A stretch of 64,000 nt of DNA from Sutterella wadsworthensis 2_1_59BFAA. Its GTDB lineage: Bacteria; Pseudomonadota; Gammaproteobacteria; Burkholderiales; Burkholderiaceae_F. This document shows positions 11,521-41,155 of this stretch, in pieces. The translations under genes and the position numbers were made by a program. The stretch is taken from NCBI RefSeq assembly GCF_000297775.1, contig NZ_JH815514.1, positions 265,455-329,454 on the forward strand, given 5' to 3'. The stretch's first letter is position 1; every line of letters starts with the position of its first letter. The notes under the pieces were generated by a model. It saw nothing but the letters and a program-made list of their open reading frames with translations. It made no database searches and was not told where the DNA came from.

Positions 11521-12165
11521 TTACGGTTCGGCGCTCTTCGAGCTGTTGTTCGACTCGAGATTCTTGAGACGCTCCTTGATGGCTGCTTCGCTTTCGATCG
11601 TAAAGCAGGTCACGACCTGCTGAACGCCGGAAACTCCGGCGGCCACCTTGGTGGCGGTCCTTGCCTCATCGATCGTCACGATGCCCATCAGATAGACGAT
11701 GCCGCGCTGGACGTCGACCTTCATCTGGTTGAGCGAAATCTTCTTGGTGCCGATGATCGAACTGCGGACCTTGGTCGCGAGCATCGAGTCGGAAAGGACG
11801 GCACCCACGGTGGCGGGCGTCATCACGGCGAGTTCGTTGATCACGGAATGCACGCCCACGCTCTTGACGGCCGTGTCCTGGGCCTTCTGCCTGTCGGCGG
11901 CCGTGAGCACTTCGCCCGTCAGAAGCACCTTGCCCTCGTAGCTCGTCACGACCACGTGGTGCTTTTCATGTCCGATGACCTCGCCGATTTCATAGCGAAC
12001 GCGCTTCTCGAGCACTTCGTCGTCGACAATGCTGCCGGTCGTTCGACGGTCCGTAATGACGGTTGCCGACGTGACGGCCGCGCCGCCGATCAGAATCGGC
12101 GCACATCCGCTCAAGCCGACCGTCGCGACGGCGGCAGCCAGAACGAACACCTTAGAAACTGTCAT
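11521..12165 (-). CDS. BON domain lipoprotein (DolP/YraP-like)
   Basis: A 214-residue lipoprotein: signal peptide with lipobox LSGC (Cys20), then two BON domains (about residues 50-115 and 125-195) and a low-complexity Ser/Asn tail. DolP-type proteins sit in the outer membrane, bind anionic phospholipid and support envelope integrity. The second BON domain contains the typical VYLMGIVTIDEA turn and the VSGVQQVVTCF strand. The gene start overlaps the upstream Crp-like gene by 14 bases, so the two are one transcript. In other betaproteobacteria this gene often lies near the yraN/gmhA group, which is not the case here. Confidence 0.87.
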   Translation of the reverse strand: MTVSKVFVLAAAVATVGLSGCAPILIGGAAVTSATVITDRRTTGSIVDDEVLEKRVRYEIGEVIGHEKHHVVVTSYEGKVLLTGEVLTAADRQKAQDTAVKSVGVHSVINELAVMTPATVGAVLSDSMLATKVRSSIIGTKKISLNQMKVDVQRGIVYLMGIVTIDEARTATKVAAGVSGVQQVVTCFTIESEAAIKERLKNLESNNSSKSAEP

Positions 12166-12949
12166 ATTCTTCCCTCCTCCGGGCCTGTCTCAAGGCCTCC
12201 GCCGCACGCTCCTCGGCGCGGCTCTGCTGCATGAACGGCATGAGCCATTCCCAATACTTCAAAAACGTCCGGCGCCTCAGCCAGATCCTCCGGCTTCGCC
12301 TGCGGATGTCATCATGCGAGCCCCACTGCCTGACCACGTCGCTGACGGTCTCGAACTTGCAGCCGAGCAGCCTTGCAATCGTCCCCTTGTCGGGATAGAA
12401 GGGCAGCTCCACCCATTCCACGCCTTTGGAGAAAAGATTCGCCATGGCCGCCGGCTCCTCGCAGTGAAGCATCAACAATAATAATGCGCCGAGGCGCTCC
12501 TCGACCGTGCCGGAATAATTGAGAAACATACCCATCCTGTCGCAGATCGACGAGACGGAGGAGTATCCCGACAGCTCGTGCTGCCACTCGGGATTCTGGT
12601 CGGCGATCTTCAGAAGCAGCTCCTGGTTCACCACCAGCACCTCGGTCGACGTCAGACACCAGTGACGTCTGGGCATGCGGTCCCTCACGTACAGATTCTC
12701 ATAATTGCCGCACAGCGCGCCGGGCCCCGCCATCGACAGAAGCAGGGGCTCGTCCCTCACTGGATCCAGCAGAGCCTTCACCACAAATCCTGAACGCACG
12801 TACATCAGATTGCCGAACAGACCGGGAGAGGTGTAGATCACGTCGCCGCGACGGAATTTCATGGGATGCCCGATGCCTGCCAGCACAAAGCTCATCGACT
12901 GCGAAAGGCAGGGGGACATCCAGGGAATGACTTCGGGGGTCATAAACAA
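12152..12949 (-). CDS. Crp/Fnr-like transcriptional regulator
   Basis: A 265-residue protein with an N-terminal cyclic-nucleotide-binding-like beta roll (about residues 25-130, with GDVIY, GNLMYVRSGFV and LLSMAGPGALCG turns), a long dimerisation helix and a winged helix-turn-helix near 185-215 (KGTIARLLGCKFETVSDVV). The arginine-rich stretch after it and a tail of about 40 residues are unusual. No Fnr-type N-terminal cysteine cluster is present, so the signal is not evident. It overlaps the BON lipoprotein gene by 14 bases and starts right at the edge of the DnaA-box region. Confidence 0.72.
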   Translation of the reverse strand: MFMTPEVIPWMSPCLSQSMSFVLAGIGHPMKFRRGDVIYTSPGLFGNLMYVRSGFVVKALLDPVRDEPLLLSMAGPGALCGNYENLYVRDRMPRRHWCLTSTEVLVVNQELLLKIADQNPEWQHELSGYSSVSSICDRMGMFLNYSGTVEERLGALLLLMLHCEEPAAMANLFSKGVEWVELPFYPDKGTIARLLGCKFETVSDVVRQWGSHDDIRRRSRRIWLRRRTFLKYWEWLMPFMQQSRAEERAAEALRQARRREEYDSF

Positions 12950-12963
12950 AAATGTTTAAAAAT

Positions 12964-13390
12964 CTGTGGTCAACTTTGTGGATAACTTCTGATGAAGATT
13001 CTCGATTTTGTGGATAACTTTTTTGTGCACCTTCCGGAGCCCAAAGTTGTCCCCTGCTTTTCCCGTCTTTCCCACAGGAGATCCAGAGGCTTGTCCACAC
13101 GCTTTTCACAGGTGCATCTTATTGTTTTTTAGGTACAAAAGTCTATTATCCACAAAAACCGTCCTCACCTACTACTTACCACTACTAACATAAAGAATTT
13201 AAGAAGAAATATATAGAGTAGAACTTTGCGAGGATCCTTCAACTTTACACAAAAAACGGAAAATGTAGAAACGCAAGAACCGGGGAGAAGGCGACTGGAG
13301 ATCAAAAGAGGGCTTTAAAATGCGCCCATTTCCGATCGCCAACCTGTGGATAACTTGTGGGTTATTCTGTGTATTCCCTGTGGATTGGGT
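12964..13390. other. oriC: candidate replication origin (oriC)
   Basis: The gap of 487 bases between the Crp-like gene and the flavin oxidoreductase contains no gene. It has four perfect DnaA boxes (TTATCCACA or reverse complement) at 12977-12985, 13009-13017, 13146-13154 and 13345-13353. A one-mismatch box lies at 13091-13099, with two-mismatch boxes near 12964, 13356 and 13379. Between 13121 and 13270 the DNA is AT-rich. CTACTA elements follow the 13146 box. Sampled lines of the plus strand change from C-rich (left) to G-rich (right) across this gap while genes on both sides are minus-strand, as expected at an origin. The call is inference from these signs. Confidence 0.72.
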
Positions 13391-13436
13391 GCATTTATTA
13401 CTGTGCTCCAAAAGTTTTTATTTTGGAGGCGAAAAC

Positions 13437-15467
13437 TCAGAGACTGCGCTTTTCGAGTGCCTGAAGGACGTAAATGCCGTCCAGAGCAGCCTCTCCCGCC
13501 GTTCCGAAGGGGGCCTTGAACTTCATGCTGCCCGCCGCTTCAAAGGGAATGCCGAGCTCGGTGAGCTCGTTCTGGAGTTCTGCATTCGCCTCGCGGTCTC
13601 CGACCACGACGATGTGGTCGACGCGAAGGATGGTGGAGCCTTCTTCGCCCTCGCAACTCACTCGCACCGAGTGGCTGTCGATCTGTTCGACGTTGGCCTC
13701 GTCGAAGATGTTCACGCCGTGCATGCGCAGCCACTGGACTTCGTAGAGCCTGCGCTCGTGTGCAAAGAGCTCCTCGGTGGTCTCATTCGTTTCATTGATG
13801 AGGTAGACCTTGCGCGGAGCGGGGTTGAGATGGGGGATGACGCCGAGCGTGCCGCCGATGTGTTCGGCGGGGTCGCCGATGCCCCAGGCGCAGCACCATT
13901 CATCGTGCGCCTTCAGGTCGTGGGTGCAGAGATGGCGCGTGACGTCCACGGCGACGTTTCCGCTGCCGATGACGGCGACACGGTGGCCGACGGGCACGCG
14001 GCCCTGCAGCAGGTCCTCAAGCGAAAGGACGTTGGGCGTGTCGATGCCGGGAATGTCGGGCATGCAGGATTCCTTGCCCGTGGCGAGCAGGATCCTGCTT
14101 CCGCTGTAGTTGTCCTCAATCCACTGCGCGGTGGCGCGAGTGTTGCGGATGATTTCGACGCCGAGCTCGACGAGCTCGCGCTCCTGCACCTTGAGAAGCT
14201 CCGCGATTGAGCTTCGGCCCTGAATCTTTGCGCAGAGCCTGTAAAGGCCGCCAAGTTCGGGACCTTCGTCAACGAGGGTGATCTTGTGGCCTCTCAGAGC
14301 GCCCTCACGGGCCGCAGCCATGCCGGCAGGGCCTCCCCCTACGACGAGTATGTCGAGGCCGCCAGGATGCTTGTGAGAGCGTCTGAGGACGTATGGGTCT
14401 GCAATGCAGGCCAGCATTTCCCTGCCCTCGCGCCTGTCGGGGCGCGTGCAGCCGTGCGGACAGAGTGTGCATGGCCTGACGGGCTTGCCCGTGTGCACGT
14501 GCTCCACCCAGCGTGCGTCCGCAATGAGCGGACGACCGATCTCGACGAGACTCGTGATGTTGTTCTGCAGGATGTCGTCAAGCCTGTCGGGCCCCGGCAT
14601 GCGGTGGCCGAAGATGACGGGAACCTTGATCTCCCGGGAGAACTTCTCCATGAACGGCACCCAGACGCCTGCGGGTGTCAGGTCGCTGTTGACGGGAACG
14701 CTGTTGGGCGTAAAGCCGATGTCGAAACTGAAGAGATTGACGCCTTCGTAATGAAGGGCCTGGGCAAAGGCAAGGAGGTCGTGCCATTCGCTGCCGCCCG
14801 CGTGCAGGTCAAGAAGCGAAAGGCGGTATGAGATGATCGGCGCCGGTCCGACGAAGCTTCGGATGCGGCGGACGAGCTCGACCGCAAAGAGCGTGCGGGC
14901 CTGCAGGCCCCACTTGTCGTGGCGGCGGTTGAAGAGGCGACTCGAAAAGACGTTCGGCAGGGAAAGGCGGCCGCCGTAGATCTCCACGCCGTCGAATTCT
15001 CCGTGCAGGATGGCGTGGTAGGCAAAGAGGGAGTACTGGCTGATCAAGTGGCTCACCAGGAGCCCCGGAGCCCTGTGCAGCGTGCGCCCCGTGTCCCTGT
15101 TGCGAAAGCGCGAGGCGGAGACGGCAAACATGTGGTCTGCCCCGGCGCCGTGGTGCTGAAGCTGAAGAAGGACCTTGGAGCCCGACTCATGGATGACGGA
15201 TGTTAGGCGAACCGCATTGTTGAGCAGGCCGGCCGTCAGGACGGGGTCCTTGAGATTCCGCAGACCAGTTTCGTGCACGACGCCGTTGCCGAGGATGAAG
15301 AGCCCCGGCCCGTCGCCACGCGCGCGTTCCTCGTAGAACTCCACGACGCGCGGGTCGAAGTAGTCCTGCTTTTCGAGGCCTGTCTCAACGGGGGCCATGA
15401 CGATCCTGTTCTTCAGGAAGTGCGATCCCACCTTGAGAGGCAGAAACAGATGCGGATAGGCGGCCAT
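13437..15467 (-). CDS. NADH:flavin oxidoreductase, OYE/FadH-like architecture
   Basis: A 676-residue enzyme with an N-terminal FMN TIM barrel (1-325), a [4Fe-4S] site (Cys333, Cys336, Cys340, Cys354) and a C-terminal FAD/NAD(P) module (VVGGGPAG at about 375-382; second Rossmann VIGSGNVAVDV). This is the layout of 2,4-dienoyl-CoA reductase and trimethylamine dehydrogenase. The barrel is divergent: the segment holding the FadH catalytic Tyr reads GGRLSL, and the segment for the catalytic His lacks His. So the substrate is unknown. It is the end of the gyrB-side minus-strand block and stops next to the DnaA-box gap. Confidence 0.87.
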   Translation of the reverse strand: MAAYPHLFLPLKVGSHFLKNRIVMAPVETGLEKQDYFDPRVVEFYEERARGDGPGLFILGNGVVHETGLRNLKDPVLTAGLLNNAVRLTSVIHESGSKVLLQLQHHGAGADHMFAVSASRFRNRDTGRTLHRAPGLLVSHLISQYSLFAYHAILHGEFDGVEIYGGRLSLPNVFSSRLFNRRHDKWGLQARTLFAVELVRRIRSFVGPAPIISYRLSLLDLHAGGSEWHDLLAFAQALHYEGVNLFSFDIGFTPNSVPVNSDLTPAGVWVPFMEKFSREIKVPVIFGHRMPGPDRLDDILQNNITSLVEIGRPLIADARWVEHVHTGKPVRPCTLCPHGCTRPDRREGREMLACIADPYVLRRSHKHPGGLDILVVGGGPAGMAAAREGALRGHKITLVDEGPELGGLYRLCAKIQGRSSIAELLKVQERELVELGVEIIRNTRATAQWIEDNYSGSRILLATGKESCMPDIPGIDTPNVLSLEDLLQGRVPVGHRVAVIGSGNVAVDVTRHLCTHDLKAHDEWCCAWGIGDPAEHIGGTLGVIPHLNPAPRKVYLINETNETTEELFAHERRLYEVQWLRMHGVNIFDEANVEQIDSHSVRVSCEGEEGSTILRVDHIVVVGDREANAELQNELTELGIPFEAAGSMKFKAPFGTAGEAALDGIYVLQALEKRSL

Positions 15468-15471
15468 GATG

Positions 15472-16413
15472 CTAGGGAAGCTTCTCCAGATGATGGATGC
15501 CGAAGGGCACCAGCACGGACGGCACGATGTTGAGGCTCGGCTTCAGGTTGTTCGCCTGGTCGTCGAAGAAGATGTGCGGCCTGATGGCCTTGAGAAACGG
15601 CTGCTTGTCGAGACCGTCGAGCAGAAAGAGCTCCGCGGCGCTCATGCCGAAGCTTTTCAGTGTGGTGATCAGGCGCTCCTCGCTGGGCGCGCCTCGAGCC
15701 GTCACGATGGAGATGCGGACGGCGGGCTCGAAGTACGGGTCTGCGGCGCCCCTGTGGTTGTAATCGAAGCGCTGAAAGGCCGACAGCTGCTCGAAGAGCC
15801 TGCGCAGGGGCCCCGGCGAATGGGGCGTGGAGGCCTTTTCCTGCTCGAGTCGATGAAAGCCCGAGAGCCCCTCCTTCTGGTACTCGCGCTCGCTTTCGTC
15901 GTCGGCGATCACGCCGTCGAAGTCGAAGGCGATGCGCAGCGTCGGACTGGCGTCGTCATCCTCGTCCCCGACGGGAGACGGCATCACGAGGCCCGCAGGC
16001 TGGCCTGCGGCGATGGCATTGCGGACATTCTCGGGGTTGGCGCTCAGAAAGAGAGAGGCGTTGAAGGCGGCCAGATACGGATAGGTCGAGTGGCCCGACG
16101 TAAAGCCGCCCGCCGAAATGGGCAGCCTGTAGTGGCGGCACGAATGGAAGAAGCGCTGGGCCGTCTCAGGAGAGTTGCGCGAGAGCGCAATGACCCTGAA
16201 GGGCGCCAGATCGCCGTAGAGCTCGTTGAGGGCGAGCAGGCGGCGCACGAAGGGAAAGGCCACGCCCGGACGCAGGGGCGTGTTCTGGTAGCGGACCTGA
16301 TGGTCCCTGAATGCCTTGTAGCCCTTTTCCTCGAAAAGCGCGTGCTCCTCCTCAAGATCGAACAGCGCCCTTGAGGAAACGGCGATGACCACTTTTTCCT
16401 TGAGATTATCCAC
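15472..16413 (-). CDS. 5'-nucleotidase family protein
   Basis: 313 residues, matching the cytosolic 5'-nucleotidase family common in proteobacteria (VIAVSSRALFDLEEEH at the start, FDFDGVIADDESE as the haloacid dehalogenase nucleophile segment, IVTARGAP and FFDDQ as later motifs). It should hydrolyse nucleoside monophosphates. GTG 16413 was chosen because GGAGG lies 7 bases before it and the conserved core begins at once; an ATG at 16470 with GAGG upstream would add 19 unconserved residues. It is 4 bases from the flavin oxidoreductase start. Confidence 0.83.
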   Translation of the reverse strand: MDNLKEKVVIAVSSRALFDLEEEHALFEEKGYKAFRDHQVRYQNTPLRPGVAFPFVRRLLALNELYGDLAPFRVIALSRNSPETAQRFFHSCRHYRLPISAGGFTSGHSTYPYLAAFNASLFLSANPENVRNAIAAGQPAGLVMPSPVGDEDDDASPTLRIAFDFDGVIADDESEREYQKEGLSGFHRLEQEKASTPHSPGPLRRLFEQLSAFQRFDYNHRGAADPYFEPAVRISIVTARGAPSEERLITTLKSFGMSAAELFLLDGLDKQPFLKAIRPHIFFDDQANNLKPSLNIVPSVLVPFGIHHLEKLP

Positions 16414-16487
16414 GCGGCGTCCTCCAATGGTTTGAGGCGGTGAAAGCGGAAGGCCAGCGGCGCCGGCCATCCTGTTTCCCTCGGCGA

Positions 16488-19100
<2,613 letters not shown>

Positions 19101-19132
19101 CTAGTTCGGTTTCCTCTCGTGCGCTCGGAGCG

Positions 19133-20245
19133 TCAGATGCGCATCGGCATCACGACGTAGCGGAAGCGCTCCTGCGATTCGGGCATCGTGATCAGCACGC
19201 TGCCGGAGGCGGTGGAGAAGTTGAAGCGGACGGTCTTGTTCTTGAGGATGCCGAGCACTTCAAGGAGATAGGTGATGTTGAAGCCCATGTCGAGCTCGTC
19301 GTGCGTCCAGGGCACGTCGAAGCGTTCGAGAGCCTCTTCGTGGTCGGAGTTCGTGCTCTGGATTTGCAGGCCCTCGCCGTTGAGGATCCAGCGGATGCCG
19401 TGGAACTTCTCGTTCGTCATGATGCCGACGCGGCGAAGCGCGTTGGAGATCGCCTCGCGCTCAAGTTCAAGGGCGTTCGGGTTCGTGTCCTGAGAGGGAA
19501 GCACGCGCTTGTAGTCGGGGAAGCGGCCTTCGATGAGCTTGCTCATGAAGGTGATGTTGCCGAAGGAGAAGCACACCTGAAGGTCCGTGAACTGGACGCG
19601 GACGGGCGTGTCGTCCTCGGGGAGCAGGCGAATGAGCTCGCGCACGGTCTTGCGCGGGATGATGGCCTGCATCGGGGTGTTTTCGTCATCAACGTCGACT
19701 TCGCAGCAGGCGAGACGATGGGTGTCGGTGGCGACGGTGCGAAGCTTCTTGCCCTCGACGACGAAGAGTACGCCGTTGAGGTAGTAGCGGACGTCCTGAC
19801 TGGCCATAGCGAAGGCCGTCATCGTGAGCAGGTAGCGCAGCGTGCGGGACGGGATGAAGAGCGTCGTCTCCCACTGGCTTTCCTTGAGGACGGGGTATTC
19901 GTCGGCGGAGAGCGTCTGAAGCTGGAACTTGCCGTTGTTGCTGCTGATCGTGAGGCCGCGGTCGCCGAGATCGAACTGGACCTCGTTGGTGGCGGGAAGA
20001 GCCGTCAGGATGCTGGCGAGCTTGGAGGCGCCGACCGTGAAGCGGGTGTCGACGCCTGCGACGCCGACGGGAGCCTCGGTGCTGATCTGGATATCGAGGT
20101 CAGTGGCGGAGAACTTGACGTTCTCGCCGTTCTGCTCGATCAGGATGTTGCTCAGAATCGGCAGCGTCTGGCGCTTTTCAACAATGCCTTCGACGATTTT
20201 GACGGGTTTGAGCAGGTTTTCGCAGACGCTCTGGATGTTCTTCAT
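19133..20245 (-). CDS. dnaN: DNA polymerase III subunit beta (sliding clamp)
   Basis: 370 residues, the usual clamp length, built of three repeats of the clamp fold. Typical features are the start IVEKRQTLPILSNILIE, the middle YLNGVLF-VEGKKLRTVATDTHRLA segment, and the C-terminal YVVMPMRI tail that forms the hydrophobic partner-binding pocket. The dimer encircles DNA and tethers polymerase. It follows dnaA after 52 bases in the conserved dnaA-dnaN order and precedes gyrB (recF is absent between them). Confidence 0.98.
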   Translation of the reverse strand: MKNIQSVCENLLKPVKIVEGIVEKRQTLPILSNILIEQNGENVKFSATDLDIQISTEAPVGVAGVDTRFTVGASKLASILTALPATNEVQFDLGDRGLTISSNNGKFQLQTLSADEYPVLKESQWETTLFIPSRTLRYLLTMTAFAMASQDVRYYLNGVLFVVEGKKLRTVATDTHRLACCEVDVDDENTPMQAIIPRKTVRELIRLLPEDDTPVRVQFTDLQVCFSFGNITFMSKLIEGRFPDYKRVLPSQDTNPNALELEREAISNALRRVGIMTNEKFHGIRWILNGEGLQIQSTNSDHEEALERFDVPWTHDELDMGFNITYLLEVLGILKNKTVRFNFSTASGSVLITMPESQERFRYVVMPMRI

Positions 20246-20297
20246 AACAAATACCTGTTGAAAAATTCAAAAAATCGGGTTCCGTCGGGTGCTTCTG

Positions 20298-21659
20298 TCA
20301 GCCCTTGATCATCTGCTCGAGCACGTGGATCTCGTGATTGAGCTCGGCGTTGCCCTGGCGTTCCTGAGTGATCTTTCGCACGGCGTGCATGACGGTCGTG
20401 TGGTCTCGGCCGCCGAAGTTGGCGCCGATTTCGGGGAGGCTGTGCTGGGTCAGCTCCTTGGTGAGGTACATGGCAATCTGGCGCGGCCTGGCGATGTTGG
20501 CGGGGCGGCGCTTCGAATGCATTTCCGCGACCTTGATGTTGTAGTAGTCGGCGACGGTCTTCTGGATGCTCTCGATCGTGATCAGGTTGTTGTTGACCGA
20601 GAACTGGTCGCGAAGGACGTGCTTGGCGATGTCGATTGTGATTTCCTTGGCGGCCGACGGTTGGAACTGCTGGTAGGCGATGACCTGCTGAAGGGCGCCC
20701 TCAAGCTCGCGGACGTTGGACTTGAGGCGCTTGGCGATGAACATCGCCACTTCTTCGGGCAGCGCGGCGCCGAGCGCCTTGGCCTTGTTGAGCAGAATGG
20801 CGATGCGCATTTCAAGCTCGGGCGGCTCGATGGCGACGGACAGGCCCTGGGAGAAGCGCGAGATTAGGCGCTGCTCGATGTCCTTGAGGTTGCGGGTGTA
20901 CGTGTCGGCCGTGAGCACGACCTGCTTGTTGTGCGGCACGAGCGCTTCGAAGGCACGGTAGAACTGCGCCTGGGAACCCTTGGCGCCCGAGAAGGACTGG
21001 ACGTCGTCGATGAGAAGCAGGTCGAGGTTGCGGTAGCGCTCGTCGAATATCTGAAGCGCCTTGCGGGAGCTCGAGGAGTCGCGCGTGGCGGTCGTGTACT
21101 CGCTGATGAAGTCCTGGGCGGAGATGCAGCGGACGCGTGCCTTCGGATGAAGGTCGAGATAGCGGTGGCCGATGGCCTGCATCAGATGGGTCTTGCCCAG
21201 ACCGACGCCGCCATAGATGTAGAGCGGGTTGTACTGCATGCCCATCGTAGTGGCGACGTGTTCCGCGGCCGCGACGGCGAGCTGGTTGGCGTTGCCGTTG
21301 ACGTAGTTTTCAAAGGTGAGGCCGGGAAGGAGGCCGGTCTCTTCGCGTCTCCTCTCAATGTCCTCGAGGGACGGTCCCTTGGGCTGAGCAGGAGTCTGCA
21401 CGTCGCCTGCGAGTGCGCCGACGGCCTGCAGGGTGACCTTCACCTGGCCGCCGTAGAGGTGCACGGCCACGTCCTGAATGGTCTTCAGATACGTCGCGCG
21501 GATCGTCTGCACCTTGCTGGCGGGCGCTTCAAGGACCATGTCGCTGCGTTCGCTGTCCCACCGCACCAGCTCAATCGGTTCGAACCAATTGGTGATGATC
21601 ATCGGAGGAAGCTTCATCGCTTTGATCTGCGCGAGACAGTCTTGCCAGAAGTTGTTCAT
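20298..21659 (-). CDS. dnaA: chromosomal replication initiator protein DnaA
   Basis: 453 residues. The start was set at ATG 21659 (MNNFWQDCL), the conserved domain I beginning; the frame is open further upstream through the promoter region but that part is not DnaA-like. Domain II is short (about 82-112). The AAA+ domain has Walker [10 protein letters not shown] at 150-158 and the [11 protein letters not shown] Walker B. Domain IV ends with the [11 protein letters not shown] signature that reads DnaA boxes. Its own promoter overlaps DnaA boxes. The gene is minus-strand, so head-on to a rightward fork from the 13-kb gap. Confidence 0.97.
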
Positions 21660-21732: not shown

Positions 21733-21802
21733 ATTATTTTAGCCGATTTGTCCGTGGATAACTTTGCTTGAGGATAACTTATCCACAATTCGGTGTGGAT
21801 AA
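21733..21802 (-). promoter_or_regulatory. dnaA promoter region with DnaA boxes
   Basis: Perfect DnaA boxes at 21779-21787 and 21794-21802 and a one-mismatch box at 21753-21761. Reading the minus strand, TTATCC within the last box and AATAAT at 21738-21733 are spaced 17 bases and could be -35 and -10 elements, so DnaA binding would cover the promoter. This is the arrangement expected for DnaA autoregulation; it may also be a second, weaker origin element. The start of dnaA is about 75 bases downstream. Confidence 0.6.
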
Positions 21803-40946: not shown

Positions 40947-40993
40947 TTCTCGATAGGGTTATGCACAGCTTTTTTCAACTGTGCGAGTCGTTG

Positions 40994-41134: not shown

Positions 41135-41155
41135 TTGTCCACAAGATTATCCACA
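41135..41155. promoter_or_regulatory. two DnaA boxes before priA
   Basis: TTGTCCACA at 41135-41143 (one mismatch) and a perfect TTATCCACA at 41147-41155, same orientation, 12 bases apart, 27 bases before the priA start codon. Placed where DnaA binding could block or modulate priA transcription. Confidence 0.55.

Follow-up and report, generated by a model that had tools for sequence, protein, structure and literature searches.

In Betaproteobacteria, the replication origin is usually located in the gap between rpmH and dnaA. Bipartite origins, with parts on either side of dnaA, occur in other bacteria and, to our knowledge, extend over about one gene. The oriC of Escherichia coli, a cluster of DnaA boxes with an AT-rich unwinding region, lies apart from the dnaA gene, and its neighbours are gidA/mnmG and mioC (PMC10225481). 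Origins of the BUS type, such as oriC of Bacillus subtilis, which adjoins dnaA, comprise a DnaA box, a spacer of no more than 16 bp and at least three DnaA-trios (PMC8287927). No description of the Sutterella origin was found in a search limited to published papers, and little was found on Burkholderiales origins away from dnaA.

Analysis of a stretch of 64,000 nucleotides of the genome of Sutterella wadsworthensis 2_1_59BFAA (the query genome; the stretch is hereafter the window, to which coordinates refer unless another contig or genome is named) showed that the intergenic gap at 12944–13436 (~490 bp, hereafter the 13-kb gap) is very probably the chromosomal oriC, as judged by computation from its location, architecture and conservation. 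With BUS origins of the B. subtilis type (PMC8287927), it shares a DnaA box followed, after a spacer of 14 bp, by three trios of the CTA/CTT kind (3'-GAT-5' when read on the opposite strand) and then by AT-rich DNA, but it lies about 8 kb from dnaA, and the strict trio count is reached in only some relatives. Similar to E. coli oriC, it combines a DnaA-box cluster with an AT-rich unwinding region apart from dnaA; the neighbour genes, however, are different, and instead of the dense GATC sites and IHF site of the E. coli type, the gap contains four GATC and no match to the IHF consensus. The neighbourhood rnpA-rpmH, dnaA-dnaN-gyrB is shared with other Betaproteobacteria, in which the origin usually lies at rpmH-dnaA, whereas the Sutterella origin is located beyond gyrB and the gene of 5'-nucleotidase.

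Organisation of the 13-kb gap

The preliminary description had placed the gap at 12950–13436; its right end was retained, while the left end was shifted, since the start of the left-hand gene is most likely ATG 12943 and the gap accordingly begins at 12944. The following features were annotated:

12944–13436, no strand: predicted oriC, the whole intergenic gap, with box cluster, AT-rich core, skew minimum and genus-wide position
12977–12985, minus strand: outer left DnaA box TTATCCACA, exact match
13009–13017, minus strand: DnaA box TTATCCACA, exact match, no. 1 of the conserved triplet, 82 bp before no. 2
13091–13099, plus strand: DnaA box TTGTCCACA, one mismatch, no. 2 of the conserved triplet, 55 bp before no. 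3
13146–13154, plus strand: DnaA box TTATCCACA, exact match, no. 3 of the conserved triplet, adjoining the trios
13169–13188, plus strand: DnaA-trio-like element CTACTACTTACCACTACTAA, 14 bp after the box at 13146–13154, BUS-type scan score 8
13170–13227, no strand: highest AT content among all 50-bp segments of the window, presumed duplex-unwinding element
13345–13353, minus strand: outer right DnaA box TTATCCACA, exact match, with weaker copies at 13356 and 13379

The four perfect boxes and the near-perfect box TTGTCCACA reported in the preliminary description were recovered. The number of perfect boxes expected by chance is 0.004 (mean of dinucleotide shuffles; maximum 1 in 2000), and the five boxes with no more than one mismatch compare with 0.14 expected in dinucleotide shuffles of the gap (maximum 3). 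The entire 2.72-Mb genome contains 16 perfect boxes, four of which are inside the 13-kb gap. An intergenic box cluster above chance, as in a DnaA-dependent oriC, is thus present. The AT-rich core described earlier was found as well: AT content is 60% in the gap versus 39% in the window, the gap is the most AT-rich of all 490-bp stretches of the window, and the seven most AT-rich 50-bp segments all start at 13170–13178. The segment 13170–13227 lies near a DnaA box, as does the AT-rich unwinding element of a DnaA-dependent oriC.

The trios of the CTACTACTTACCACTACTAA element read 3'-GAT-5' on the minus strand. The box-spacer-trio pattern of BUS is represented in the window by a box with 0 mismatches, a spacer of 14 and the trios CTA CTA CTT; the score of 8 compares with 3 for the best of 203 other 500-bp pieces. 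At the inner box, equivalent to that at 13146, the strict BUS rule holds in the genomes G000, G002, G004 and G007 and fails in several relatives, including G003 and G008. In the other Sutterella genomes, repeats of the CTACTA type are kept after the inner box, and either the spacer or the third trio deviates. The pattern TACTACTWAC-NACTACT, located downstream of the inner box and spacer and followed by AT-rich DNA, was found throughout Sutterella. A strict family-wide search for a box with two trio clusters, too stringent to recover the query genome itself, matched five Sutterella genomes, each at the orthologous gap.

At 12944–12960, next to where the Crp-like gene starts, lies a short palindrome-like element, AACAAAAATGTT; it is conserved in most Sutterella genomes and is possibly an operator.

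Gene neighbourhood and conservation

The genes adjoining the gap in the window are as follows:

12152–12943, minus strand: Crp-like regulator gene, left neighbour (Crp HTH match weak, below threshold)
13437–15467, minus strand: FMN/FAD oxidoreductase (NADH:flavin oxidoreductase type), right neighbour
15472–16470, minus strand: 5'-nucleotidase (PF06189), conserved neighbour
16488–21659, minus strand: gyrB, dnaN and dnaA (dnaA ATG 21659), transcribed toward the predicted origin

An orthologous gap with DnaA boxes was found in all nine Sutterella genomes read, and the gene order dnaA-dnaN-gyrB-5'-nucleotidase-(oxidoreductase)-gap-(Crp-like)-BON is kept in the nine genomes. The FMN/FAD oxidoreductase has no match in the corresponding interval of most other Sutterella genomes mapped. 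The spacing of the box triplet, 82 and 55 bp, is maintained across the genus within 1 bp, with two mismatches in some copies of the boxes. The same gap position almost certainly serves as the origin across the genus Sutterella. Gaps with clustered DnaA boxes at the same position were also detected in Dakarella, Duodenibacillus and Aphodousia, and their use as origins outside Sutterella is probable.

GC skew in the query genome and relatives

Cumulative GC skew in the window is lowest at 13189, and the minimum stays there when 354 kb of the contig are analysed; it does not fall at 21.7–22.2 kb, the position named in the preliminary description as incompatible with an origin at 13 kb. The cumulative keto-skew minimum in the window is at 13344, and intergenic GC skew changes from -0.07 to the left of the 13-kb gap to +0.09 to the right. 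The skew switches from negative to positive at the gap, as at a DnaA-dependent oriC.

The hand counts of G and C in seven sampled lines, from which this switch had originally been proposed, were exact on recount, and minus-strand genes contain every one of these lines, as stated. As to the accompanying claim that coding bias does not explain the switch, the strand-corrected step persists when nine genomes are pooled, but in the query genome the coding-strand effect (~0.32 either way) exceeds the replication step (~0.11), and therefore raw skew of this genome alone cannot fix the position of the origin. At four-fold degenerate sites, plus-strand genes have a skew of roughly -0.3 to -0.4 and minus-strand genes one of +0.2 to +0.4, and both groups move the same way across the gap. 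The strand-corrected change-point in the query genome alone is significant (300 permutations gave no fit as good) but poorly localised, with the best fit near 117 kb, a wide bootstrap and a slight edge of the 13-kb gap over the dnaA gap (183.6 versus 185.9).

In view of this poor localisation, nine Sutterella genomes were combined after removal of coding-strand bias. The pooled change-point is located no more than 500 bp from the 13-kb gap, with a sum of squares of 262.7 versus ~290–296 at the rpmH-dnaA gap. When the genomes are taken singly, G002, G004, G007 and G008 each have their best strand-corrected fit, among all gene boundaries, at the orthologous gap; G006 has no usable strand-corrected signal, and in G003 the change-point fits better 14–21 kb away from the gap.

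In the closed 2.99-Mb genome G007, analysed as 20-kb samples of which one (30–50 kb) was masked, the sign of the skew flips at the orthologous gap (1,916.6 kb): samples between 480 kb and 1,916.6 kb are negative and those from the gap onward round to 330 kb are positive, the sign remaining constant for more than 1 Mb on either side of the gap. The second flip falls in the interval 330–500 kb, within which the antipode is expected (423 kb). Samples of the closed genome G003 have the same tendency with more noise. In G019, a member of a sibling genus, the raw skew minimum is inside dnaA, although the orthologous gap holds seven boxes, and both gaps fit equally well after strand correction. Skew in the outgroup genomes G014, G017 and G020 is too weak to place the ancestral origin.

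Alternative explanations

In every Sutterella genome read, the rpmH-dnaA gap contains from one to five perfect or near-perfect boxes, and the origin could accordingly be sought there, at the usual site, with the 13-kb gap as a DnaA-binding regulatory or titration site similar to DARS or datA. This explanation is highly improbable: in the window, the AT content there is modest (GC 54% versus 41% in the 13-kb gap), a BUS-type scan found no box-plus-trio element in the rpmH-dnaA gap of any Sutterella genome examined, and both the skew change-point and the conserved box-trio core belong to the 13-kb gap. In the window, the boxes of the rpmH-dnaA gap are represented by one feature:

21779–21802, no strand: back-to-back pair of DnaA boxes upstream of dnaA, presumed dnaA autoregulation

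These boxes lie 120–140 bp upstream of the dnaA start (ATG 21659) and most likely serve autoregulation of dnaA rather than the origin. Preservation of boxes in both gaps across Sutterella would also agree with a bipartite origin, in which the two gaps cooperate through an 8-kb loop with unwinding at the 13-kb gap. Such an origin is very unlikely, as 8 kb with gyrB and dnaN lie between the gaps instead of about one gene, and the boxes near dnaA differ from species to species in number and orientation and, in the window, are placed like autoregulatory boxes.

The excess of coding-strand bias over the replication step in the query genome could mean that the switch at 13 kb reflects only a change of gene orientation or the edge of a recent inversion, the boxes being incidental. 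This reading is scarcely credible and is already largely refuted by the persistence of the strand-corrected step in the nine-genome pool and the constant sign on each side of the gap in G007. The preference of the preliminary description for an origin at 13 kb over the dnaA-rpmH gap is supported by the pooled change-point, the skew of G007 and the occurrence of the box-plus-trio element at the 13-kb gap but not at the rpmH-dnaA gap.

Other clusters of DnaA boxes

In the window, the DnaA boxes TTATGCACA (40959–40967) and TTATCCACA (41147–41155) lie between hemE and priA, immediately upstream of the latter, and control of priA by DnaA is possible. A perfect box about 26–28 kb from the predicted origin was found in all eight Sutterella genomes with a readable position, the identity of priA having been established in the window genome alone.

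Upstream of xseA, an intergenic stretch of contig C5 of the query genome (L016:7160–7710) contains several DnaA boxes, three of them perfect. This cluster was rejected as a competing origin, since its skew is not at a minimum; it is a candidate site of DnaA titration or reactivation. Close to the 3' end of a gene similar to rmlD (L004:9088–9140), two perfect boxes are separated by 44 bp, and five other Sutterella genomes also contain a pair with a separation of 44 or 45 bp. The closed genome G002 contains further clusters with four perfect boxes each (C1:2252923–2253240 and 2550027–2550283), and box count alone therefore proves nothing.

Proposed mechanism, evolution and significance

The locus is most likely an ordinary DnaA-dependent oriC opening at the trios, and its unusual traits are the location beyond gyrB and the head-on orientation of dnaA-dnaN-gyrB. 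Following the general DnaA/BUS mechanism, from which binding, unwinding, helicase loading and firing are deduced here, DnaA would bind the high-affinity boxes of the 13-kb gap and be steered to the box at 13146 by the triplet with conserved spacing (13009, 13091 and 13146). From this box, a DnaA filament would spread across the trios at 13169–13188 and open the neighbouring AT-rich DNA (~13170–13227), where the helicase would be loaded. Two forks would depart in opposite directions, and because the predicted origin lies beyond gyrB and the 5'-nucleotidase gene, the right-hand fork would meet the dnaA-dnaN-gyrB block head-on.

The ancestral origin was presumably located at rpmH-dnaA. The genes rpmH and dnaA are still divergent, which is the usual arrangement, and it therefore seems that relocation of the origin left its neighbouring genes uninverted. 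We tentatively suggest, as a possible scenario, that a single relocation, from a site next to dnaA to one beyond gyrB, took place in an ancestor of Sutterella, Dakarella, Duodenibacillus and Aphodousia, the flanking genes remaining uninverted, and that dnaA-dnaN-gyrB has been head-on since, perhaps linking fork passage to expression of the initiator.

If oriC were assumed by default to lie beside dnaA, the origin of these common gut bacteria would be placed wrongly; the record of the closed Sutterella genome G002 is numbered from dnaA. The 13-kb gap offers a short, testable origin for Sutterella, and the genus would represent a natural case in which dnaA, dnaN and gyrB are oriented head-on to replication.
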